Below are positions 20,945 to 61,792 of a stretch of 64,000 nt of DNA, in pieces; within the stretch, counting starts at the first letter, position 1, and every line of letters starts with the position of its first letter. The DNA comes from Cladochytrium replicatum. Taxonomy: Eukaryota > Chytridiomycota > Chytridiomycetes > Cladochytriales > Cladochytriaceae. The DNA is taken from the NCBI GenBank assembly GCA_025526935.1, contig JAHLKD010000035.1, positions 360,129-424,128 on the forward strand, in the 5' to 3' direction. Made by a program: the position numbers and the translations under genes. The notes below the pieces were generated by a model. The model saw only the letters and a list, made by a program, of their open reading frames with translations. It searched no databases and was not told the DNA's origin.

Positions 20945-23540
20945 ATGTACAGTCCCGCGGATAAAGTGCTGGACACTAACGGGGCAATCGAGACGCGCGA
21001 CGCGAGCGTCGATTCCGGCGATTCCGACGACAATCACAACCATCTGCACACCCACGCCGATGACGAAGATCTGTTCGACAAGTCTCTGAGCGCCCACCTC
21101 GCCCAGCACCACGCCGCTCACGCTCAGCAGCAAGCTGCTGCTGCTGCTGCTGCCGCCGCGGCGTTGGCTGTTGCAAGCCAATCGGTGAACATCCAAACTA
21201 TTCCGCATGTTTCACAGTCGACCACGATTGTAGCATCGGGGTTGCCCGTGGAACCTCTTAGCGAGTCGGTTTTTGCAGCCATTGTCGCAGCTCAATCTCC
21301 AGAGGAACCTGTGGCAAAGTCTGGTAGAAAGAGAACTAGAAAGACGGCCGATGACGCCTCGCGCCAGCGCACTCCGTTGAGTTTGGATTTGAAGTACCAG
21401 ATTTGTAAATACGCTGCCGAAAACCCTCTTGCGAAGAACCGGGATGTTGCAGAAGTGTGAGCTTTTTTGCGTACCTGGCTTTTCCGACCCGCATCTGATT
21501 TTGATGAATAGGTTCTCATTGAAGCCAAATACTGTGATGAAAATCCTAAAGCAAAGCTCAAAGTTTCTCTCGCTATCAGAAACACTGCGGATGAAGGGAC
21601 GGATGCGCGATCGTCTCGGGCAGCACCCCGATGTAGATAACGCTTTACTTGTATGGGTCGAACACGCGGAAGCGGCACGCTTGATCGTCACCGACGAGGT
21701 GCTCTGCCAGCAGGCCACGATGTTCGCACGGCACATGGGCATCACGGATGAGAAATTCAAAGCCTCGCACGGTTGGCTCTCTCGCTTCAAGCAGCGGACC
21801 AACCTGATCACAGTCCGAGGTTCATCCACGCCAAACCTAGATGATGTTCATACCGAGAGACAGAGGTTACACGCCATCATTGCGCAACACAAACTGGAGG
21901 ATGTTTTTACGGCCCAAGAGACTGGCCTTTATTACCGGATGCCACCGGTACGAGCACTGCTTTCCAACTCTGTAACAACTCTGAGTTCGGGTCAGACGTA
22001 CGACTTCAAACTCGAAAAAGACCGGATGACTGTACTCCTGGGCTGCAACGCGACAGGGACGGAGAAGCTGAAGCCATTGCTTGTAGGGAAGAAAGCAAAA
22101 CCTCGAGCTCTTGCAAATTTCAATTTGAACTCTCTGTATGTTTCCTACCACGCGAGCCCGAATGCCTGGCTGGATTCGACAATGTTTGCCGAGTGGGTCA
22201 TGGAACTGAACGAGCAATTCCGCCACCAGAATCGCAGGTGTCTCTTGATCATGACGCACTCTAATGCCCACGTGCCGCGCAATATCCCGGAACTCACCAA
22301 CTTGGTCATTGAACACATGGCCCCTAGCGCTGCATCCTGCCTTCAACCCATGGACGCTGGGATCATCATGTGCTTCAAGGCACTGTACAAACGATGTTTA
22401 CTCACATATATCCTCCAGAGATACAATGAGCTGATTGGGGAGCCAGTACACTTGAACACTTTCCAAACACCTCAAGCGTCGGCAAATGCTGCAACACTGC
22501 CTCCAGAGGTCGCACTATCTCTTCACAATCACATCACTTTGAAGACTGTTATCGATACCATTGGAGCCTCGTGGGATACCATGGCAGCGGAATCCATCAA
22601 TACATGTTGGCGTCACACCGGTCTCCTTCCACCACCTATGATCTCGCCGCAAGTATTTGCCCATCAACCCCCACCCCCACCCCCACCTCCCCCACCTCCA
22701 CTCCCAGCTACTGCAGCCGAGTCTCGAACACCATCGACCTCCGCCTTCGATTACGCCGCGGTGGTTGCAAACACCCAGTCCCTCCTGTTCAGCGTCGACC
22801 CGTCGACGCAGATCATGAGCCTCAACAATCTCAGCTCTCTGACCGCCGCGCAACTCACCTCCGCGGCAGCACCGTTCCTCAACAACCCTTTCCTGAACAC
22901 TCTTGAGAGCGCAGCCGCGGCCGCTACCAGTAGCACCACCACAAGTGCAGTAGTCGCGGCCGCCGCAGCAGCTGCAGCAGCCGCAGCCGCCGCGTCGACC
23001 GTGTACGCGCCGAGACGTCCTGCGTTCAGCGTCGGGAATCTGGTCGAGAGCACGCGGCTCTGGGAGATCCTCGAGTCCCTACGGCCCGCGTACGCTACGA
23101 TCGGGGGTATTTTGTCGGCCTTTGAGTACCTCGAGGTCGAAGATCGTGTGATGGGGACAGACAAGATGCCGACGATCGATGAGATGATTGAGAGGGCGAA
23201 GAGGAGGAGGGCTAGCGGGATGTTGATGGCGCAACAGCATCAGCAACAGCTTATGCAGCAGCAACAGCAGCAGCAATTTGACGAGACGCTGGAGGATCAG
23301 GGGTTGGAGGACGACGAGGAGGAGGAGCATTTTGACTCTACGCCGGGAGGATTGTTTGCGAGCGACACGGAGAGGATCAGTTGGAAAGATGGGTTTGACT
23401 CTTTGGAACGGACAATTGCGTTTTTGGAACAGCAGGAGGACGCGGTGATGCTTGGACCCACGTTGACTCAGCTGCGAAAGGCAAGAGCCGTGTTGGCTCA
23501 GAGGAGCGTTGCGGCTGCGAGTGCCGGATGGAGAGGATGA
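20945..23540 (+). CDS. Pogo/Tigger-derived CENP-B-like protein, probably domesticated
   Basis: Two exons (20945-21456, 21512-23540) give about 846 residues. An N-terminal His/Gln/Ala-rich region leads into a psq-type helix-turn-helix (LSLDLKYQICKYAAENPLAK, then RDVAEVFSLKPNTVMKIL, near residue 147). Next is a CENP-B/Tc5-type HTH (EHAEAARLIVTDEVLCQQAT, then HGWLSRFKQR, near residue 215) and a DDE_1 nuclease fold (near residues 289-460). Two of the three expected acidic residues are changed: the first motif reads AQETGLYYR instead of DETGL, and the second reads LLIMTHSNAHV instead of LLLDNxxxH. The third, LQPMDAGIIMCFK, is kept. The C-terminal third holds poly-Pro, poly-Ala and poly-Gln tracts and an acidic block (DDEEEEH), as in CENP-B. 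No inverted repeats are seen at the gene edges, and the gene has a host-type intron. A DNA-binding chromosomal role is an inference. Confidence 0.85.
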
Positions 23541-50887: not shown

Positions 50888-50961
50888 TGCGCCCTCCCGG
50901 GATTGAACCGAGGACCTTAAGATCTTCAGTCTTACGCTACTCCCAGCTGAGCTAAGGACGC
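50888..50961 (-). tRNA. tRNA-Phe (GAA), possibly defective
   Basis: Read on the minus strand: acceptor stem GCGTCCT pairs with AGGGCGC (one G-T pair), and an A follows as discriminator. The anticodon arm is TAAGA-CTGAAGA-TCTTA, anticodon GAA, very like yeast tRNA-Phe. The T arm is CTCGG-TTCAATC-CCGGG. The D arm carries one extra base (GTAGC where GAGC is usual), which leaves a three-pair stem. No run of four T is seen in the 40 bp after the 3' end, so normal Pol III termination is doubtful. The 5' end touches the SINE that follows on the plus strand. Confidence 0.75.
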
Positions 50962-51259
50962 TGGGAAGGCTCAGTCGGTACGAATGCGACTTTTCGAAGC
51001 TAAAACTCCGCGGTTCGAATCCTATAGGGGACTGGATTCGAATTTCCTACGAAATATATCTCTCGCAATATCGTGTCACGTGCAAGTACCGCGCCACACC
51101 TCCTTCGATTCGCCATTGCCTTCGCTCCTCTTTCCTACGGCTCGCACGGCTCCCCAAGTACTGAAGATTCCAAATCTTGGTTGAAGTACACGTGGGTGAC
51201 ATGTACTGATTAAGCATTGTCAATACATGTTATAACATTCAAAAAAAAAAAAAAAAAAA
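50962..51259 (+). mobile_element. tRNA-derived SINE with a LINE B-type 3' tail
   Basis: The first 65 bp have an A-box-like GGCTCAGTCGG (50968-50978) and a perfect B box GGTTCGAATCC (51012-51022) at a normal spacing, the internal Pol III promoter of a tRNA head; the rest of the fold is too degenerate for a tRNA. A body of about 100 bp follows. The last 130 bp match LINE B's 3' UTR: TACGGCTCGCACGGCTCCCC at about 51138 is identical to 60476-60495, and the end GTGACATGTACTG...ATACATGTTATAACATTC parallels LINE B's GTGATATGTATTG...ATACATATTATAAAGTTC. Small hairpins precede the tail, and a 19-base poly(A) (51241-51259) closes it. Two CACGTG sites lie in the body (51077 and 51189). Confidence 0.75.
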
Positions 51260-51260
51260 G

Positions 51261-51276
51261 TCTCTCTCTCTCTCTC
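51261..51276 (+). repeat. (TC)n at the 5' end of LINE A
   Basis: Eight TC units directly follow the SINE poly(A) and precede the LINE A start codon. LINE B has a (CT)n of 18 units at the same place (56255-56290). The repeat may be part of the element's 5' end or of a preferred target. Confidence 0.7.
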
Positions 51277-51282
51277 AAATCA

Positions 51283-52704
51283 ATGCCGTCTCCCAGCGCT
51301 CCGCCTGCGCAGCCGCCTGACGCGCCGCATGCCGCGCCGCCCGCCGCGCCGCCCGCCGCACCCGCCTCAAAAATTTTCATCGCTTCTGGCCGTGCTCGCT
51401 CCCGTGCTCCCTCTGTGTCCCACCCTCGCGCCCCTCAGGAAAACATTCCTGACTCTCAGCCCAGCAACTTTGATGGAGAAAATTTTCTGTGGGCAGATGA
51501 AGTGAATTCTCCTCGCGAATCACGTGACTCACGATCACGTGACCAAGCGTCATCCACTTCAGAACCGCCTCGAATTAGAGGAAGATCCCCCGCAAGTGTC
51601 GTTGATGTTCAGATGAATGATACAGTCAAAATGTCACTTACCCTTGCTGATGCTGATCCCAAAGGGAAACGTCGAGCATCAAAATCACCCCCGACTCGCC
51701 GACCTGCCTCTCGTGCCAGGGTCGAGAAGAATGCCTCTGCAGCTGATCATGCTACCTCTCCCTTGCCTACTCCTCGTGACCGATTCTTGGATGCTCTGCA
51801 TATGCTGGCCCCTGCTCAAACTTCTGGATCTCATCCATTAGTGATGTCTGCTTTCACTCGTGCAATGCAATTTCTCCCAGTATTGGAACCAGAGACTGAG
51901 GCTGCCTTCTTTGCTGCATTGACTATTGCTGTAGTTCCGTTGGTTGAAACTATCAGCTGCCCTCCTGCTGCTGTCTCTACCGTGCCTTCCTATGCTCAAG
52001 TTGCGAGTGCTAGCCGACCGCCACCTGCCCCTGCTACTCGCAATCCTGGGCCTTTCAGCACTGCAAAATTTGCCTCTCGTGCATCAAATGCTATTGTTCG
52101 TATTGAAGCTGCCGAAGCAGATGCTCAACCCGCCCTTTATCGCTCAGTGGTTGCTGGAGTGGACCCCCTATCTCGCAGATCACTACGGCCACCCAGATTG
52201 GTGATTGATTACCCGGCTGAGTCACCAATTTTGATCAATCCTCCTCAGCCTGTTCGTGATCGTGCTGCTGGTTTTGCTACTGTGAGGTTTAAGGAAATTA
52301 GTCGTCAGCCACTTAATCAGCTCCGCACTCTGATTAATCGAATTTCTGGAAACCCTCAATTTTCCCGTGACATTCGCCATATTAGTTTTATTGGGCGTAA
52401 CACTGCTGAGTTTATTTGTACTTCTGACTGTGCTGACAAGCTCCGCAAGGACATTTTTCCAGGTGATGAGGTGCCCGTTGATCTTTTTGACCCTGGGCAG
52501 CTTCGTTCTGGGTCTGTTCAATCACTTGAGCAACGTCAAGTTGCTGTAGCAAAGGCTGTTCACAAAAGATTTGCTCACCTCTTGCGAATTACTCATGATC
52601 CTGCAGTTTTTCATTATCTTCGTTCTAATCTTCCTGCTGCAGACTTTGAAGCTACTGTTTCTTTAGCCCGTTCTTCGCGTTCTGAACCTACATCTCGCAA
52701 TTAA
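51283..52704 (+). CDS. LINE A ORF1 protein (gag-like)
   Basis: 473 residues, intact. The N-terminus is Pro/Ala-rich (PSAPPAQPPDAPHAAPPAAP), then a Ser/Arg-rich part (RESRDSRSRDQASS). The C-terminal third is conserved with LINE B's ORF1: the blocks RHISFIGRNTAEFIC (A) against RHISFVGRNIASFIC (B), and KAVHKRFAHLLRITHDPAVF against REVVHKRYAHILSSVTDPAI. No CCHC zinc knuckle and no coiled-coil are obvious, so this is not the usual L1 or Jockey ORF1 layout. It should bind element RNA, an inference from position only. The stop TAA (52702-52704) overlaps the ORF2 ATG. Confidence 0.85.
   Translation: MPSPSAPPAQPPDAPHAAPPAAPPAAPASKIFIASGRARSRAPSVSHPRAPQENIPDSQPSNFDGENFLWADEVNSPRESRDSRSRDQASSTSEPPRIRGRSPASVVDVQMNDTVKMSLTLADADPKGKRRASKSPPTRRPASRARVEKNASAADHATSPLPTPRDRFLDALHMLAPAQTSGSHPLVMSAFTRAMQFLPVLEPETEAAFFAALTIAVVPLVETISCPPAAVSTVPSYAQVASASRPPPAPATRNPGPFSTAKFASRASNAIVRIEAAEADAQPALYRSVVAGVDPLSRRSLRPPRLVIDYPAESPILINPPQPVRDRAAGFATVRFKEISRQPLNQLRTLINRISGNPQFSRDIRHISFIGRNTAEFICTSDCADKLRKDIFPGDEVPVDLFDPGQLRSGSVQSLEQRQVAVAKAVHKRFAHLLRITHDPAVFHYLRSNLPAADFEATVSLARSSRSEPTSRN
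51521..51541 (+). promoter_or_regulatory. Paired CACGTG E-boxes inside LINE A ORF1
   Basis: CACGTG occurs at 51521 and again at 51536. LINE B has the same pair, 15 bp apart, at 56539 and 56554. The flanking bases diverge but the pairs are kept. Two further CACGTG lie in the SINE. They are candidate binding sites for a Cbf1/Pho4-type bHLH factor; binding is not shown. Confidence 0.4.
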
Positions 52705-55700
52705 TGTGGACTTTTCGTTCTGGAACCTTCAACTGTAGAGGTTTGCCTCTGGATTTTTCAGATTTACTTGCTTGGCTTGTTACTCATCAGCTTGATTTTT
52801 TAGTTTTAACAGAAACTCATCAGTTAACTTTAGACAGTGTTTCTTCTGAGTATTTGTTGTTTGATTCTCGTCCTCCACCAGACGCTCCTTTGGCATCTGG
52901 TGTTGCTCTTCTTATTAACCCACATCGTTGCAGTACTTATCAATTTAGGTTGATTGCATCAGTTCCTTCTGGGTTTGGTTTGTGGTTTAGGTTTCGTCAG
53001 GTCGTGATTGGTGGATTTTATTTTCCCCCACGTTGGACTGCGGAAGACTGTTTGGGTGCATTATCTGATTTTCCTCAATTTGTTTCGAATTCGGATACAC
53101 CAGTAGTTTTGATGGGTGACTTCAATTTTAGAACTCAGAGCACTGGTGATCATGTTACTAATGCCCGTGCCAGAGCACTTCTTCCTTTTTTTACAGCCCA
53201 CTAACTTTCATTGGTTGTCCCAGCTTCTTCTTCAGCTCGTCGCCCAACTTTTCGTTCCCACTTAGGGAGTTCAATTATTGATTTGTTTTTTGCTTCTACT
53301 TATGTGACAGCTTCCTCTTATTTAGTGCATGATCAACCCCAGTCTATGGCTCCCCATCCTTCAGACCATTTTGCAGTGACCTGTTCATTTTCTTTAGCTG
53401 GCCCAGATCCTCAGGCCACTGTGCCTCCTCCTCTACCTTCTTGGAATCTCCCATTGTTAAAGGATGAAGTTATTCGTAAGTCGCACAGAGAAACTGCTAA
53501 GATTCTGCTTCCTCTTACATCAGAGGCGCTAACAGCAGCATTGGAACCACTTCAGGTCCCTGTGGGGACTTCTCTTTCTCGTGCAGTGGCCCAGGGAGCA
53601 ATTGATTCTGCATTTCAAATTATAGTTGATTTTGTTGAGGCAACAGCAGTTCTGACATTGGGACCACCAACACCTCGTCGTAGAGCACCAGCGACCACTC
53701 CTTTGCCCCCTGAGATTGCTTTGTTGCGTAGTAAGGCTCGTTCAGCATTCCGTGACTATTATTCCCTCTTTCACCACAATTCTTCTGACCCTCTTCTTCC
53801 TTTTCTAAGAACTCGCCAACGTGATAGTCACAAAGCATTCAAATCAGCTCTGAGATCACACAGGCGTAAGACAAAAGCAAATTTTTTTGATGACCCTAGT
53901 TCTTCATCAGTGCCTTCTCTTCTGAAACATGTGTCTCATGCTCGGCGCTGCGCTAACTTTCGTACTTCAGCTAATGGTTTAGATTTTGATCCTCAGTCTT
54001 TAGCCAAATATTCTGATCATTTTGCTAGTGTCTACAATGCTCAAGCTGCTGACCCAGTTTCACCTTCAATTGTTCTGTGTGATTTTCAGCTGCCATTGGA
54101 TGTTGAAGCTTTTGTTCTAGCTATTAGGGACTGCCCTTTGGAGTCTGCCCCGGGTCATGATCGTCTGCCTGCAGAACTTTATCGCCCAATTTCAGCTATT
54201 CTTGCTCCATTGTTCTTGCAACTTTCTCAGTCCATTTTTCGCAGTAGTCTTACACCCACTTCATGGAATCTTGGGCTTTTGCACCCAGTTTGGAAGCAAC
54301 GTGGTACGCTTGGTGATATTACTAATTATCGCCCCATTACTCTTTCGTGTGTTGCCCGAAAAATTTTTGAGCGAGCTTTGTTGCCACATCTTTATTCTGC
54401 TATCACGTCTCAACGCCCACTTGATGCTGCCCAAGCGGGATTTCAGTCACACCGCTCGGGAATGGAATGTGTTTTTGGTCTTCAGGCATGTATCTCCCGT
54501 GCGTCTAATGCCAAGGTTCCTTGGGTTGCTGGTTTTTTAGATATTCAAGCAGCTTATGACACCACAAATCGTGCAATTCTTTGGGCTGAGCTTCTTTCTA
54601 GGGGAGTACCGTTGCCATTTGTTTTTGTTTTGAAGTCTCTGTTTGATTTTTGTTCTTCCAGAGTGGTTGTTGCAAATTGTTTTTCAGATGCTTTTGATTT
54701 GTTTAGAGGTTTGTTTCAGGGTTCTGTTCTCAGTCCACTTCTCTATATCACTTTTCTTGATCCTCTACCTGGGCTCCTCCGACCATTTGCCCCACCTATA
54801 ACACTCTTTCATCCTGCCAAACCACGATATAATTCTTTTTTATTTGCAGATGATTTGGCCTTGTTTGCAATTACTTTGGATGCTATGCAGGTTCTTCTCT
54901 CTGTTTGTGACCAGTTTGCCCAAGCTCGTGGTTTTTCTTTTGCTCCTTTGAAGTCTGTGATTCTCACAAAAATTCCTATTCCTGCTCATTCGCCTTTGCT
55001 TCTTCATGGTCAACCTCTGCCTGTCAAGCCTTCATTTCGTTATCTGGGTTGCTTTTTTGGAGATACTGGATTTGATGTTTCACTGACTATTTCCCATCGA
55101 CTTGCCAAAGCGCGCGCAGCTTCTTTTGCTTTGCTTTCTTTTTCAAGGATGTTTGGTTCTCATTCTCTGGTTGTGGTTCGTCATTTGTTTTTGTCTTTTA
55201 TTCGACCTACGCTTGAATTTGGTTTATATTTTATTCTTCCCTCTGTTGCTGTTTGCAAACCAGTTCGGACTTTTATTCACCAATGTTTGTGTCGATTTCT
55301 TCGCCTTTCATTTTCCACTTCAATTGCTGGGGTTTTACTGTTTTTTAAGTTTCCTGACCTTCAGTTTCGGCTTCAATATCTGCAGTTTCAGATGTTTCAA
55401 CGTTGGCTGGATGATGATGCCCCTGATATGGTTCACTCTATGTTGTCATTCTTTCTTCACCAGGGAAAGCACTTTCGTTGTTCTCCTGTCCCTTTCAACA
55501 ATCACTTCCTCTTCCCGGCTGCAAATGTTGTAGTTCCCAAACCTTCTGATGTTATCGCAAATCACTTTCACCAAGTAGCCTCATCTGCCTATGGTTCTAT
55601 AGCTGCTAGCTTTGCTCCCCTTGCATCTGCACACCCTCATGCGCTAGCAATTGCTGTTCCATGCTTCCCTATTTCGTCAATCTTGAGGCTTCTGCAGTAT

Positions 55701-56015
55701 CGCCTTGGACGTTTGTTTTATCACCCCCGCAAGCAGTGTTGTCACTGCCGCACTGCAACTCTCTCTAGATCTCATGTTTCAGAATGTTTGCGTCTTGACC
55801 TATTGTTGCCTCCTGTTCCTGTTCCTGTTTTACAACTTCCGCTTGACGTTGCAATTGATGGCCTTCGTCCACTTCGCATTGTCAACCCAGTGAATCTTGC
55901 ACCGTGGTATCTAGTTTTTCGTTGTCTCCATAAGATTTGGCTTCACTGTATGGGTCTGCCATTAGAAGTTTCTCCTCCAGACTCCCTCTTTGGCCCTGCA
56001 TTTGTGGATCTTTAA
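52704..56015 (+). pseudogene. LINE A ORF2: endonuclease and reverse transcriptase, one nonsense codon
   Basis: The ATG overlaps the ORF1 stop (TAATG). An endonuclease comes first: GTFNCRGLPLDFSDLLAW, LVLTETHQLT, VVLMGDFNF, then after the break SSIIDLFFAS and SDHFAVTCSF. Then the reverse transcriptase: NYRPITLSCVARKIFERALL, AQAGFQSHRSGMECVFG, WVAGFLDIQAAYDTT, GLFQGSVLSPLLYITFLDPL, and the active-site LFADDLALF. The C-terminus has a zinc motif, CCHCRTATLSRSHVSEC. The only break is TAA at 53202-53204, in frame between FFTAH and LSLVVPA, with both sides open and conserved with LINE B. A protein could be made from this copy only by readthrough or restart. Confidence 0.85.
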
Positions 56016-56249
56016 CGTTTTCTTTTCTCATTATTTATTACTCACCTGTTTTTTTGGCACCTTAGCAGTATCTGACGGGTAGCCACAGGTTTGAGTTTAC
56101 ATTCTCTGTTTTGCTTTGTTGCTTTTCCTTATGCTGCGCGCTTCCCTATGTGCTGGTCAATAACCATCTTGTAAGGCACTTTGGGTGTTGTTTTTTGTTA
56201 TGCATTGTATGTGCAAAATAAATAATAATATTGTTAAAAAAAAAAAAAA

Positions 56250-56291
<42 letters not shown>

Positions 56292-56297
56292 AAATCA

Positions 56298-57697
56298 ATG
56301 CCGCCTCCCAGCGCTCCGCCTGCGCAGCCGCCTGATGCGCCGCATGCCGCGCCGCCCGCCGCACCCCCCGCTGTGCCCCCTGATGGACTTTCTGGTGGCA
56401 CCGTGATTTTTGAGGCCCGTTCGCACCCCCGTGCCTCCTCTGTTGAAAATTCCGCTCCACAGCTTCCATTCTCCGCTCCTGCCTCTCCAATTCACTGGGC
56501 CGATGATGTGAATATGGGGGAGGATGAAAATGCCGAATCACGTGACTTCCGATCACGTGACCGACGCGCCAAAAGACCTGCTGAACATGAATTGCCCCGT
56601 GGTCGCTCCCGTTCTCGTTCCCGATCACATCTGCCGGGTGTCCGGGTTCTTGCTGCTGTGGCTGCTCCCTCGAGTGTTGCATCTCTGGCCGATCTCCGTG
56701 TCGTTCTCACTCAGATGCGATCTGTGTGTGCAACCTTTGATCCGTTGGCGATGCTGGATCCTATGCTTGCACATTTGCCGAGGGACACTCCTGCTGAATT
56801 TTTTAGTGTTTGTCGTGATATGGCCGAGGATCTGGTGGGTCGCTTTGGGAGGCCGCTGCCTTCGCCTTCACCTCCGGCTGCCCCATGTCTCCCGCCATGA
56901 TGATGTGGCTGCGCCTGTGTGCCTTCCCCCTAGACAACTGCATGGTAATCCTCCAATTCAGGACGATCTTGGGAACTCTGGTGCTCCTGGCCCTCGCCCC
57001 CCGTCTAGTCGACCTGCCCCACGTGGACCTCGTGGTCCACGCACTTATGCCGCTGCTGCTGCCAATGCCCGTGCCCGTGTGCTTGAGAGTCTCCCCACAC
57101 TGAGTGCTGAATCTCGTACAGAAGCTGATCAGGACTGCCCTTGCTGGTCGTGACCCCACTTCGAATGTCAGCCTTCGTGGCCCTCGGCCTGTCGTATTCT
57201 ATCCTCCGACCTCTCCGCTGCTGGTCTCCCCACCTGCTGATCTTCAGGCCCGTGTGGATGATTTGACCACTGTGTACATCAAGGACATCATGAGACAGCG
57301 GCTCGGCTTTGTGCGGACCATGCTGAGGGCTCTCTTGGGCGATGAGGTGGTGCGTGGTATCCGCCACATCAGTTTCGTTGGTCGCAACATTGCTTCCTTT
57401 ATCTGTATTCGCTCAACCGCAATTGCTCTCCGTGCGCACTTCTCCACCCAGGAAGCTTCCACTGACGAATCAAACCCTGACTTTCTTCGCCGAGCCTCTA
57501 CTCTGCCTTTGGAGCAGCGGGAGGCTGCGGTCAGGGAAGTTGTCCACAAGAGATATGCACATATCCTCAGTTCAGTTACTGATCCTGCTATTTTCCTGTA
57601 TGTCCGTGGTCAGCTCCCCATGGATGCTCAGGAAACTGTGCTGGACAGTGCCCGCGGGATTGCGCGTCAGCCTCGCTCAACCCATCTTCGTCAATGA
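56298..57697 (+). pseudogene. LINE B ORF1, two frameshifts
   Basis: Three frames carry the protein in turn: 56298-56890 (PPSAPPAQPPDAPHAAPPAA, then PRGRSRSRSRSHLPG), about 56890-57105 (PPSSRPAPRGPRGPRTYAAA) and 57104-57697 (GIRHISFVGRNIASFICIRS, EAAVREVVHKRYAHILSSVT). Together they match LINE A ORF1 in length (about 466 codons). The TGA stop overlaps the ORF2 start as ATGA (57694-57697). Confidence 0.8.
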
Positions 57698-60449
57698 TTA
57701 GTGTTCGAGTTGGTACCTTCAATTGTCGCAATTTGAGCTTTGGAGTTCTTGATTCACTGTTTCGTTTTATGCGCGCAAATCACATTGTTTTTCTGCTCCT
57801 GACTGAAACACACCTTTTTCCTTTAGACCCGCTGCCTTCTCCAGATTTGATTTTTGACACTCGTTTTTCTCCTGGGTCATCGGGTACACGACGGGCTGGT
57901 GTGGGAGTCTTGATCAATCGCAGTCTTTGTAGAGCTTCTGATTTCCGTCTCGTTTCTAGTTATGGTGGCACCTCTCTATGGTTTACATTTCGTGGGCTTT
58001 TGGTTGGAGGGTATTATTTGCCTCCGTGTGGTATTGCTCAGGACCCCTTCCTTGAAGAGTTTATTGCTTCACTTCCTCAACATGTCCCGTCGTCTCCGTG
58101 CCCTGTTCTTTTGTTGGGCGATTTCAATGCCCGTTTTTTAGCTACTGGTGATTATTCTTCAAATCGTAGGGGTAGGTTGTTTGAGCAATTTATTTCTGCC
58201 GCTAGTTTCTCTCTAGTTAAGCACCCTTCCTGTCATAACCCCACATTTTCTTCTCGCAATGGTGACTCCATTATCGATTTGTTGTTTGTCAATCCTCTGC
58301 TTCAATGTGATCCTATTTCTTACATAGTTCATAGTCGTCTAGCCGACGGCGAGTTTATGCCTTGGGCTTCTGACCATTTTCCGGTTACAGCTGTTTTTTC
58401 TTTTGCTCCTCCCAATGCCAGCGCTCCCTCTGCTGCACCGCCCCACAAGCGCTGGGCTGCTCATCTGTTGCGTGAACCTGCTGTCTTTCAAGCAATGGAG
58501 GATGTGGGACATTTGTTTTTTGATCCCACCCTTGCTGATGTCAATGCTGCACTCAGTCCAATTTTAGAAGCTCCCGCCTTTGCCCAAATGTCTGTGGATG
58601 TTGCACAGGGATGTATTGACTCTGCATTGGATATTATTTTGTCCTTTGTTACTTCATGTGCTGCTTGTGTCATTGGACCCCCCAGTTTAGTTCGCCGTCG
58701 CTCTGCCCTCCCATTGTTGCCAGCCGCATTTAGTGGCCTTGCGACGGAGCTACTTACTTGCTCATAAGCACTATTTAGCTGTTTCTTCCTGTGATGATCC
58801 TGATCCTGGTTTAGTTGAGTATTGCCGCTTGGAGCGTGACCGGCTATCGCGTGAGCGTGTCAAAGCTTTTCGTACTTGGTCTCTTTCTCAGCGAGCTCGA
58901 GAGGCTTCTGGCGACAATATGTTTAGTTCTTCTCCTAGTTCTTTAACCGAGGTTAGCAAAGTTCTTTCCACCGTGCGTAGGTGTCATCAACGGCGCTCAG
59001 CTGCAAGTGGTTTATTGTCTGATCCTGCCTCTTTATCTCATTATCGCAATCACTTTGCCTCTGTTTATCAGACTCAGTTTGCACAATCCTCTGCCAGTGC
59101 AGAACACATTTGTCTACATGCACTGAATGATTCTGTGTCAGTTAGTGTTAGTGACTTTGTTTGTGCTATTCGTTCTTCCCCAAACAACTCTGCTCCTGGC
59201 CCAAACCATATTCCAGCTGAGTTATTTAAGCTGTTAGCTTCTGATGTTGCTATCCTTTTTGTTCAACTTTCAAACGCTATTTTCCGTTCAGGTTTGTCGC
59301 CCTCTGCCTGGAATGCTGGCTTGTTGTTACCTGTTTGGAAGAATAAGGGTTCCATTGGTGATATTAGTCAGTACCGCCCCATTACTTTAACCAATGTTGA
59401 TAGAAAAATCTTTGAGCGTACCCTGCTTCCTATGCTTGTAGCTCATGTTGGTAAACTTGATCCCGCCCAAGCTGGTTTCCAGGCCAATCGTTCAGGTGTT
59501 GAGTGTGTTTTTGCATTAGATGCTACCCTTCGACGGGCTTCCCGCACTGCTCTGCCTTATTGTGTTACTTTCTTAGATATTAAAGCAGGGTATGATACTG
59601 TGCATAGGCCTCTTTTGTGGGAACGTCTTCGTCAATTTCCCAGAATTCCAAACCGTTTGATCTCTGTTTTGATGAGTATGTTTGATTGTTGTTCTTCTCA
59701 GGTTGTTATAGAGAATCGTTCTTCTGATTTGTTTTCGCTTCCACGAGGTCTTTTTCAAGGTTCTGTTTTGTCTCCGTTCTTGTACTCAGTTTTCATCAAT
59801 CCTTTAGCACAGCTCCTTCGTCGTGAATCTTCTCATCTTGCTAGGTTTTCTTATAACACTCCTGTTTTCAATTCGTTGTTTTTTGCTGATGACATAGCTT
59901 TGTTTTCTGCCACCCCTGAGCAAGCCCAACGTGCATTGAAAATTTGTGAAGATTTTGCTTTAGCTTCTCATTTTGTGTTTTCACCTTGCGCATAATGGAC
60001 CAATTGCAGTTTCGTTTGCCCCTGTCCGCAATTTGAAACTTCGCCACCCTTTGTTGCTACCCCCACACCAACATCTCCCAACAGTATGTCTTTGTTTGTT
60101 CCTGCTATATCAGCTTGGCCGCCTGTTTCCAAACTCCCGACCTTATTGTAGGAACTGTCATGATGCCCCTGAAGTGTCGCTTGCCCATGTCTCTGTGTGT
60201 CTACATTTGCGTGCTAGTTTGTCTGCTAGTTTTGATCCAGGCCCGCCTGACGATCCCCGCCTACCTCTTGACATTGCAATTGATATGCTTTCACCACGGC
60301 CTTTTTACCCTTCCCCTGCTTTTTCCCAGTGGGTTCTTGTTCTTCGTGCACTTCACCGCATTTGGTCAAACTGTCTTGGTTATGAGTTAGTTTTGTCTCC
60401 AGCTCCTGATTGTATCTTGTCTGCTTTTGTTGATTTGGATATGCCTTAG
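57694..60449 (+). pseudogene. LINE B ORF2, frameshifted with internal deletion
   Basis: Three frames: 57694 to about 58740 is the endonuclease (GTFNCRNLSFGVLDSLFRFM, LLTETHLF, LLLGDFNARF, SIIDLLFVN, SDHFPVTAVF); about 58733-59995 is the reverse transcriptase (SQYRPITLTNVDRKIFERTL, DPAQAGFQANRSGVECVFAL, FADDIALFS); 59990-60449 has only the extreme C-terminus with CRNCHDAPEVSLAHVSVC. About 270 residues present in LINE A between the FADD motif and the zinc motif are missing. Both frameshifts and the deletion show the copy is dead. Confidence 0.8.
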
Positions 60450-60613
60450 TGTTTTGAAACATTTTACTTTTCTTACGGCTCGCACGGCTCCCCATGTGCT
60501 GCCAATTTACGTGTATTTTTACACTTGTATTTGGATTTTGCACCAGCGGGTGATATGTATTGGTTGGACAATAAATACATATTATAAAGTTCAAAAAAAA
60601 AATTAAAAAAAAA

Positions 60614-60866
60614 TACCCTCATTCTCTGTTTTGCTTTGTTGCTTTTCCTTATGCTGCGTGCGCTTCCCTATGTGCTGGTCACCCGCTGGTGAAAAATGCA
60701 AATACAAGTTGAAAAAGGGGTTTTTTGTTTTTTTTAACAAATTATTATTTATTTTGCACATACAATGCATAACAAAAAACAACACCCAAAGTGCCTTACA
60801 AGATGGTCATGGATATGTATTGGTTGGACAATAAATACATATTATGAAGTTCAAAAAAAAAAAAAA
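60614..60866. mobile_element. Scrambled junction of sense and antisense LINE tails
   Basis: In order: 60614-60679, sense LINE A 3' UTR (matches 56102-56160); 60680-60707, antisense LINE B tail; then a short T-run; 60738-60808, antisense LINE A 3' end (reverse complement of about 56162-56235); 60809-60866, sense LINE B tail ending in poly(A). The pieces are fragments 30-70 bp long with different orientations, too short to be whole insertions. Template jumping during target-primed reverse transcription, or nested rearrangement, would explain this. Confidence 0.7.
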
Positions 60867-61792
60867 TGTTCACATGAATGATACAGTCGAAATGTCACTT
60901 ACCATTGCTGATGCTGATCCCAAAGGGAAACGTCGAGCCTCAGAATCACCCCCGACTCGCCGACCTGCCTCTCGTGCCACGGTCGAGAAGAATGCCTCTG
61001 CAGCTGATCATGCTACCTCTCCCTTGCCTACTCCTCGTGACCGATTCTTGGATGCTCTGCATATGCTGGCCCCTGATCAAACTTCTGGATCTCATCCATT
61101 AGTGATGTCTGCTTTCACTCGTGCAATGCAATTTCTCCCAGTATTGGAACCAGAAACTGAGGCTGCCTTCTTTGCTGCATTGACTATTGCTGTAGTTCCG
61201 TTGGTTGAAACTATCAGCTGCCCTCCTGCTGCTGTCTCTGCCGTGCCTTCCTATGCTCAAGTTGCGAGTGCTAGCCGCCCGCCACCTGCCCCTGCTACTC
61301 GCAATCCTGGGCCATTCAGCACTGCAAAATTTGCCTCTCATGCATCAAATGCTATTGTTCGTATTGAAGCTGTCGAAGCTGATGCTCAACCCGCCCTTTA
61401 TCGCTCAGTGGTTGCTGGAGTGGACCCCCTGTCTCGCAGATCACTGCGGCCACCCAGATTGGTGATTGATTACCTGGCTGAGTCACCAATTTTGATCAAT
61501 CCTCCTCAGCCTGTTCGTGATCGTGCTGCTGGTTTTGCTACTGTGAGGTTAAGGAAATTAGTTGTCAGCCACTTAATCAGCTCCGCACTCTGATTAATCG
61601 AATTTCTGGAAACCCTCAATTTTCGCGTGACATTCGCCATATTAGTTTTATTGGGCGTAACACTGCTGAGTTTATTTGTACTTCTGACTGTGCTGTCAAG
61701 CTCCGCAAGGACATTTTTCCAGGTGATGAGGTGCCCGTTAATCTTTTTGACCCTGGGCAGCTTCGTTCTGGGTCTGTTCAATCACTTGAGCA
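60867..61792 (+). mobile_element. LINE A2: internal ORF1 fragment
   Basis: Nearly identical to LINE A ORF1 from about 51605 to 52534, with scattered changes. It contains one extra frameshift near 61550 compared with LINE A1. Its 5' end falls inside ORF1, as for a 5'-truncated insertion. Its 3' end falls at GAGCA inside ORF1, not at a poly(A), and there the putative LTR begins, so the remainder of this LINE probably lies beyond the window. Confidence 0.8.

Follow-up and report, generated by a model that had tools for sequence, protein, structure and literature searches.

A SINE family and non-LTR retrotransposons situated beside tRNA genes in the chytrid fungus Cladochytrium replicatum

Introduction

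In the sections of PMC5911963 available to us, the review table draws its tRNA-targeting elements without long terminal repeats (non-LTR retrotransposons) entirely from social amoebae. Among them, TRE5 of Dictyostelium discoideum, an element of the L1 type, is found upstream of tRNA genes in the opposite orientation, and TRE5-A ends in oligo(A) and has an open reading frame 1 (ORF1) product that acts with TFIIIB (PMC5911963, same sections). Here, we describe a 64,000-nucleotide stretch of Cladochytrium replicatum DNA (positions 360,129 to 424,128 of contig JAHLKD010000035.1, assembly GCA_025526935.1; hereafter, the window), in which a short interspersed element (SINE) with a tRNA-like head and two long interspersed elements, LINE A and LINE B, are stacked beside a tRNA-Phe gene, together with the placement in the genome of these elements and of a shorter one, the half-LINE. 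Like TRE5, they lie upstream of tRNA genes in the opposite orientation, and the LINEs have an ORF1 and an ORF2 with an apurinic/apyrimidinic (AP)-type endonuclease and a reverse transcriptase (RT). TRE5, however, lies 40–54 bp upstream and the elements here 5–12 bp in 25 of 30 cases; its host is amoebozoan, and a SINE partner is unmentioned in the available sections of PMC5911963. The nearest spacing among the described cases is that of NLTR-A of Dictyostelium purpureum, 2–6 bp upstream of the mature tRNA (PMC5006619, the section available). NLTR-A has an RNase H domain, whereas Pfam finds none in the window frames of LINE A and LINE B, and that section mentions no SINE. In fungi, Ty3 and the Yarrowia elements Ylt1, Tyl3, and Tyl6 insert at the start of tRNA transcription or about 5 bp away (PMC5911963, available sections). 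Unlike the elements described here, these are LTR retrotransposons, which do without target-primed reverse transcription.

UnaSINE and UnaL2 form a SINE/LINE pair with stringent tail recognition. Stringent SINE/LINE systems such as UnaSINE/UnaL2 and ZfL2 are not known to target tRNA genes. As in those systems, a 3′ stem-loop is common to the SINE and LINE B, but here both elements carry poly(A) 3′ of it. In zebrafish ZfL2, the 3′ stem-loop is recognized by the LINE protein (PMC4176376, the part available). Fungal SINEs, like the one here, include AfuSINE2 of Aspergillus fumigatus, which is tRNA-related and has target duplications of 4–14 bp (PMC5063351), and those of the chytrid B. salamandrivorans, which are labelled Alu and make up ~1% of the genome (PMC5364385); the available sections of both papers leave tRNA-gene targeting unmentioned, and those of PMC5364385 and PMC6875170 contain no mention of tRNA-targeted SINEs. 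Our literature searches, outside which most subscription journals lie, revealed neither a SINE nor a fungal LINE targeted to tRNA genes. As far as these searches reach, tRNA-targeting non-LTR elements and SINE/LINE pairs are known kinds, and their combination and the host are new. It seems likely that this is the first tRNA-gene-targeted SINE family and the first case of such non-LTR elements in a fungus, with the SINE inheriting the targeting of its LINE and nearly every tRNA site being filled.

Results

In the window, 6 bp separate the SINE copy from a tRNA-Phe gene of opposite direction, as called by ARAGORN and Rfam. The features of this region are as follows.

50888–50961, minus strand: tRNA-Phe (GAA) gene, insertion target of the whole cluster (ARAGORN; Rfam RF00005, 53.4 bits)
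50962–50967, no strand: 6-bp gap from the tRNA 5′ end to the SINE copy (sequence reading)
50968–51240, plus strand: SINE copy, ~9 nt missing at the 5′ end (sequence, genome search, pattern search)
50968–50978 and 51012–51022, plus strand: A box and B box of the SINE (sequence reading)
51136–51156, plus strand: stretch of 21 nt matching LINE B 60474–60494 exactly; crossover zone of the contig C23 chimera
51196–51233, plus strand: SINE terminal stem-loop, arms 51196–51205 and 51224–51233 (folding, tail alignment)
51241–51259, plus strand: SINE poly(A), 19 A (sequence reading)

Judged by the box consensus, GGCTCAGTCGG is taken to be the A box and GGTTCGAATCC the B box. A preliminary description of this DNA had placed a SINE with both boxes at 50962–51259 and a 20-bp identity with LINE B at 51138 and 60476. 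The boxes stand, but 50962–50967 is flanking sequence and the element runs from 50968; the identity is real and is corrected to 21 nt, at 51136–51156 and 60474–60494. Most copies read begin with CCTCATAGTGGCTCAGTCGG or a near-identical sequence, and the initial part of this common start, the ~9-nt CCTCATAGT, is absent from the window copy.

The SINE, LINE A, LINE B, and the half-LINE keep a constant short distance and a consistent orientation relative to tRNA genes. This was seen in a tRNA sample chosen independently of the SINE, by Rfam tRNA score (at least 62 genes; the best 63 of 2278 candidates). An element was found upstream of 49 of 52 sampled genes, in 23 cases by coordinates (within 7 kb) and in 26 by sequence, with three of the 49 calls resting solely on a (TC)n run that resembles the LINE 5′ ends. 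Contigs C1–C55 hold 33 of the sampled tRNAs, and 23 of these have a divergent SINE or LINE head or tail within 7 kb upstream (24 in the raw coordinate count, one being set aside as its features belong to a neighboring tRNA); reading the sequence at the other ten revealed LINE A or LINE B at eight and (TC)n at two. On other contigs, LINE A, LINE B, the half-LINE, or (TC)n is present within 140 bp of 16 of 19 tRNAs, one of the 16 being assigned through (TC)n alone. Of the ten sampled genes beyond these 52, five show by coordinates a divergent SINE head at most 7 kb away. The main LINE match at every tRNA gene read is directed away from the tRNA. Among 78 element features with their nearest sampled tRNA within 7 kb, a count which each SINE may enter twice, as head and as tail, 72 are 5′ and divergent. 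A divergent SINE head lies within 100 bp of at least nine of the 62 tRNAs (100 listed heads), and randomly shifted heads gave a mean of 0.004 and a maximum of 1 in 1000. The SINE/LINE pair of the preliminary description is retained; missed there were the tRNA-gene targeting of the SINE and LINEs and the fact that the neighbors of the SINE in the window are additional elements piled up at a single tRNA gene.

The spacing was examined at loci picked by SINE match, where 48 of the 115 SINE heads in the genome were read. Twenty-one heads, each divergent from its tRNA, lie 6–31 nt from a tRNA 5′ end as measured to GGCTC, with 13 isotypes represented, and the gap between SINE and tRNA is 5–12 bp in 20 of them and 22 bp in one. 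Another 23 come after the A-run of another element, with at most 6 nt between it and the CCTCATAGT start in 22 and 17 nt in one. The other four stand elsewhere: one by a tRNA-like stretch uncalled by ARAGORN and Rfam, two head-to-head with LINE A, and one at a reversed LINE B ORF2. ARAGORN detected 34 tRNAs in the fetched loci, and 30 have an element within 60 bp upstream (SINE, 21; LINE A, 6; LINE B, 3); 29 of these 30 elements are divergent, and 25 are spaced by 5–12 bp.

In the two head-to-head cases (L040, C18:282676; L043, C24:8777), LINE A abuts the SINE head, which may itself be an occasional target of LINE A; the two copies may represent one duplicated event because their flanks are alike. 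At L030 (C80:95360), the SINE precedes a LINE B ORF2 stretch and is divergent from it as though aimed at it. The stretch contains TAGCTCATGTTGG, presumably a chance A box by the consensus. A tRNA beside this copy was considered and rejected, as the tRNA-looking stretch is LINE B ORF2 and has no Rfam match.

The window element is a young multi-copy SINE with a tRNA-like head. Pattern searches of the 50.5-Mb assembly (198 contigs) found 115 heads (up to 2 mismatches), 128 mid-tails, and 131 tail ends, with 0 in each reversed-pattern control; places were listed for the first 100 of each head and tail pattern (SINE head, mid-tail, and tail end; LINE tails). A similarity search with the SINE gave 46 matches (the best 40 of 164 candidates), of which 44 are near full length and 99–100% identical and two are tail-only with 70% identity. 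The search for further copies that the preliminary description proposed has therefore shown an element that is not unique to the window. The SINE is 282 bp long, is spread over many contigs, and has 12–24 nt of poly(A) in 21 copies. Three of the 48 heads read have no SINE tail at the expected place: a chimera with LINE B, a copy at C23:521391, and one at a locus edge. The C23:521391 copy (L042) passes from the SINE head into unrelated sequence after ~110 nt. A source tRNA of the head was sought among 31 tRNAs, and no clear ancestor emerged. A separate “LINE C” with the exact SINE tail was also considered for the ~13–16 headless copies (128 mid-tails and 131 ends versus 115 heads) and rejected; the two headless copies seen, at C1:18624 and C113:75936, resemble 5′-truncated SINEs.

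The SINE tail is related to the LINE B 3′ untranslated region (UTR). Their local alignment score is 51, and the best of 1000 dinucleotide shuffles reached 31. The SINE tail is closer to LINE B than to LINE A because the score with the LINE A 3′ UTR (17) was reached by 372 of 1000 shuffles. The 21-nt identity sits within a 33-nt block at 91%, and the identities concentrate around the TACGGCTCGCACGGCTCCCCA block and the final 47 nt. The final nucleotides of the SINE and LINE B fold into one common 10-bp stem.

60550–60585, plus strand: LINE B terminal stem-loop, homologous to that of the SINE, arms 60550–60559 and 60576–60585 (folding, tail alignment)

In nine distinct tails from the fetched loci, 96.7% of the cells of this stem pair, compared with at most 55.6% for slid versions. 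The nine were taken from 16 distinct tail strings, after exclusion of five that were jumbled, truncated, or chance strings and two that were identical to LINE B once trimmed. Two stem pairs are doubly changed; one differs between LINE B and the SINE (U-A/C-G), the other in a single LINE B variant (G-C/C-G). In 500 shuffles, the paired percentage was reached by 2, the covariation score by 2, and the number of doubly changed cells by 3. The last 60 nt of LINE A also form a hairpin (z = −4.1), with no sequence likeness to the SINE by the shuffle test.

At one locus (L041, C23:428796–429091), the SINE head and body are joined to a LINE B tail within the 21-nt common stretch, and the pattern for this join occurs at 1 place in the genome, on contig C23. 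The chimera looks like a product of template switching in reverse transcription, or possibly of DNA recombination, and this single copy is suggestive of the LINE B protein copying the SINE. A SINE/LINE B pair with a common tail is well supported by these sequence comparisons, and copying of the SINE by LINE B proteins is a probable consequence. The preliminary description had proposed the tRNA-headed SINE and LINE B as a candidate pair, on account of a tail that aligns with the LINE B 3′ UTR and matching ends before poly(A), and had suggested folding the tail ends. All of this is borne out: no shuffle in 1000 aligned as well, the final 47 nt are alike and form the same terminal stem-loop with two compensatory pairs, and the SINE is multi-copy with a homologous tail, poly(A), and one chimera.

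Outward from tRNA-Phe, the cluster in the window consists of the SINE, LINE A, LINE B, a mosaic, and a LINE A fragment. The features beyond the SINE are as follows.

51260–56254, plus strand: LINE A, (TC)n 5′ end, 3′ end at 56235, poly(A) 56236–56254
51283–52704 and 52704–56015, plus strand: LINE A ORF1 and ORF2, the latter encoding endonuclease then RT, with a stop near 53204
56255–60602, plus strand: LINE B, (TC)n 5′ end, 3′ end at 60592, then poly(A)
57694–58767 and 58733–59995, plus strand: endonuclease and RT of LINE B ORF2; ORF1 and ORF2 are frame-broken in this copy
60603–60866, plus strand: mosaic assembled from LINE 3′ pieces of either orientation, with a terminal LINE B tail and poly(A)
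60866–61792, plus strand: LINE A copy, truncated, outermost element of the cluster

Pfam assigns an AP-type endonuclease and RVT_1 to ORF2 of both LINEs, and these were the only domains in the window frames at E ≤ 1, the LINE B copy being broken; no credible Pfam family was found for either ORF1. The C-terminal parts of the two ORF1 proteins are 43% identical. At the 5′ ends of LINE A (51260–51276) and LINE B (56255–56290), a variable (TC)n is followed by a near-identical ORF1 start, and (TC)n 5′ ends also occur at L055, L071, and L072. A pattern search of the genome counts 311 LINE B tails and 185 LINE A tails. The LINE B RT has at least 102 matches (the best 100 of 769 candidates). The LINE copies of the window are broken, yet intact LINE B frames exist, since 19 of these matches lie in a 1163-amino acid open frame. 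The LINE A ORF2 RT matches LINE-1 and R2 proteins in the PDB about equally, and its clade is therefore left unclaimed. The model of the C-terminal part of LINE A ORF1 has a mean predicted local distance difference test score (pLDDT) of 63, and a Foldseek search with it gave nothing at E ≤ 0.001 and weak matches that include GUCT and U1A domains; as a guess from this model, the part might be an RNA-binding domain resembling the RNA-recognition motif (RRM). The mosaic contains an inverted LINE A tail at 60721–60813, and its composition suggests template switching.

The half-LINE is ~1.26 kb long and encodes one protein of ~330 amino acids, which is 28% identical to the C-terminal part of LINE A ORF1. 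Its tail is ~82% like that of LINE A, and it occupies the same tRNA sites.

L021 (C110:164810–166070), L022, L061, L067, L073, and L078: half-LINE copies beside tRNA genes

From its LINE A-like ORF1 and tail and the common sites, a symmetry can be drawn in which LINE A may mobilize the half-LINE just as LINE B would mobilize the SINE.

Discussion

Here, we propose that the SINE, LINE B, LINE A, and the half-LINE very probably form a group of non-LTR elements using target-primed reverse transcription for insertion at the RNA polymerase III (Pol III) start of tRNA genes or directly beside it, usually 5–12 bp upstream of the mature tRNA and divergently. The observed part of this proposal comprises the SINE copies, the homology of tail and stem-loop, the spacing, orientation, and breadth at tRNA genes, the LINE placement, and the outward tandem stacking. 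The SINE would be transcribed by Pol III via its own A and B boxes, and the LINE B protein would bind the stem-loop of the SINE tail and copy the SINE. Pol III factors, TFIIIB for example, may guide the insertion machinery to its site, as reported for TRE5-A. The position agrees with the Pol III start, which is ~10 bp upstream of the mature tRNA according to the available sections of PMC5911963. Target-primed reverse transcription is suggested by the type of the endonuclease and RT and by the poly(A) ends. Every new copy would land beside the tRNA and push older elements outward, an order suggested by the geometry of the window cluster.

Several observations weigh against this proposal or qualify its evidence. 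When the half-LINE is counted too, an element lies within 140 bp 5′ of 33 of the 34 tRNAs in the SINE-picked loci, but this figure is inflated because the loci were chosen by the SINE and because one of them was the source of the library's half-LINE piece. The fair control is the 3′ side, where 0 of 34 have an element within 140 bp, a result in favor of the proposal. Three of the 52 sampled tRNAs, all on contigs other than C1–C55, have no element within 140 bp, six of the 78 element features are 3′ of their nearest sampled tRNA (within 7 kb), and the C24 LINE A precedes tRNA-Phe in the same direction (one case). The SINE copies are not all independent because at least three locus pairs have common flanks (C18:282676/C24:8777, C105/C79:278565, and C111/C48:4001). 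Long target-site duplications, which the preliminary description had asked for, were not found in 21 SINE copies: the best flank matches are 1–4 nt in 16 and 5–8 nt in five, all five of which run into the CT/CCTC start of the SINE itself. The flanks match over a mean of 3.57 nt, compared with 2.71 nt when partners are swapped, and 0 of 500 swaps reached the observed mean, with the five longest matches overlapping that start. End to end, the SINE and LINE B tails are identical in 85 of 129 alignment columns, and the SINE tail is thus not that of LINE B. The folding energies are only mildly lower than those of shuffles (z = −2.1 for the SINE end and −1.5 for the LINE B end), the number of doubly changed pairs was reached by 116 and that of pair types by 397 of 500 shuffles, and the covariation comes from nine tails of two families only. 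The SINE head shows a best identity of ~62% with the 31 tRNAs compared.

The degree of tail divergence bears on how the SINE is copied. The SINE might instead be copied through relaxed recognition of poly(A) by LINE A, by LINE B, or by the two together, its LINE B-like tail being mere ancestry; poly(A) ends are present on the copies read of all four elements, and much of the SINE tail has become unlike that of LINE B. We regard this as possible but doubtful, as what has been conserved is the stem-loop, with its compensatory changes, and a block lying upstream of it. None of the 48 heads read was seen to lead into a LINE A tail, and no genome-wide search for such a SINE was made.

As to the placement, wide insertion followed by selection that spares only copies beside tRNA genes is improbable. 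According to PMC5006619, tRNA genes are potentially safe integration sites in compact genomes, but a spacing of a few base pairs and a single orientation among copies that are 99–100% identical leave scant time for filtering, and the 3′ sides of the tRNA genes are empty. The locus pairs with common flanks could mean that segmental duplication multiplied units of tRNA gene plus SINE. The 21 closest SINE–tRNA pairs involve 13 isotypes and differ in gap, poly(A) length, and outer flanks; the flanks largely refute this account, which we consider very unlikely. Least credible of all is that the tRNA-like head is one tRNA pseudogene caught in a LINE transcript, with no SINE family; the remoteness of the head from each of the 31 tRNAs speaks for it, and the copy number (115 heads, 131 tails, and 44 near full-length matches) refutes it. 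Our proposal of a tRNA-directed group, with LINE B as the likely partner of the SINE, is preferred.

A fungal case with a SINE partner would mean that the tRNA-targeting habit arose or spread beyond the social amoebae, and that a Pol III-type parasite is able to inherit the address of its LINE. The means by which a LINE locates the Pol III start become testable because four kinds of element with differing tails and ORFs use one site with base pair-scale spacing and near-saturating occupancy. A further question raised by the arrangement is how head-to-head promoters of the Pol III type can be tolerated at many of the genome's tRNA genes.

Host and other features of the window

Chitin synthase has 22 matches in the genome and none in 14 control prokaryotes, and IFT57 has 6 matches, with weak sub-cut-off matches in three control archaea. 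These matches fit a flagellated early-diverging fungus. Elsewhere in the window, a transposase frame with DDE_1 and Tc5-type helix-turn-helix (HTH) domains is located at 21429–23540.

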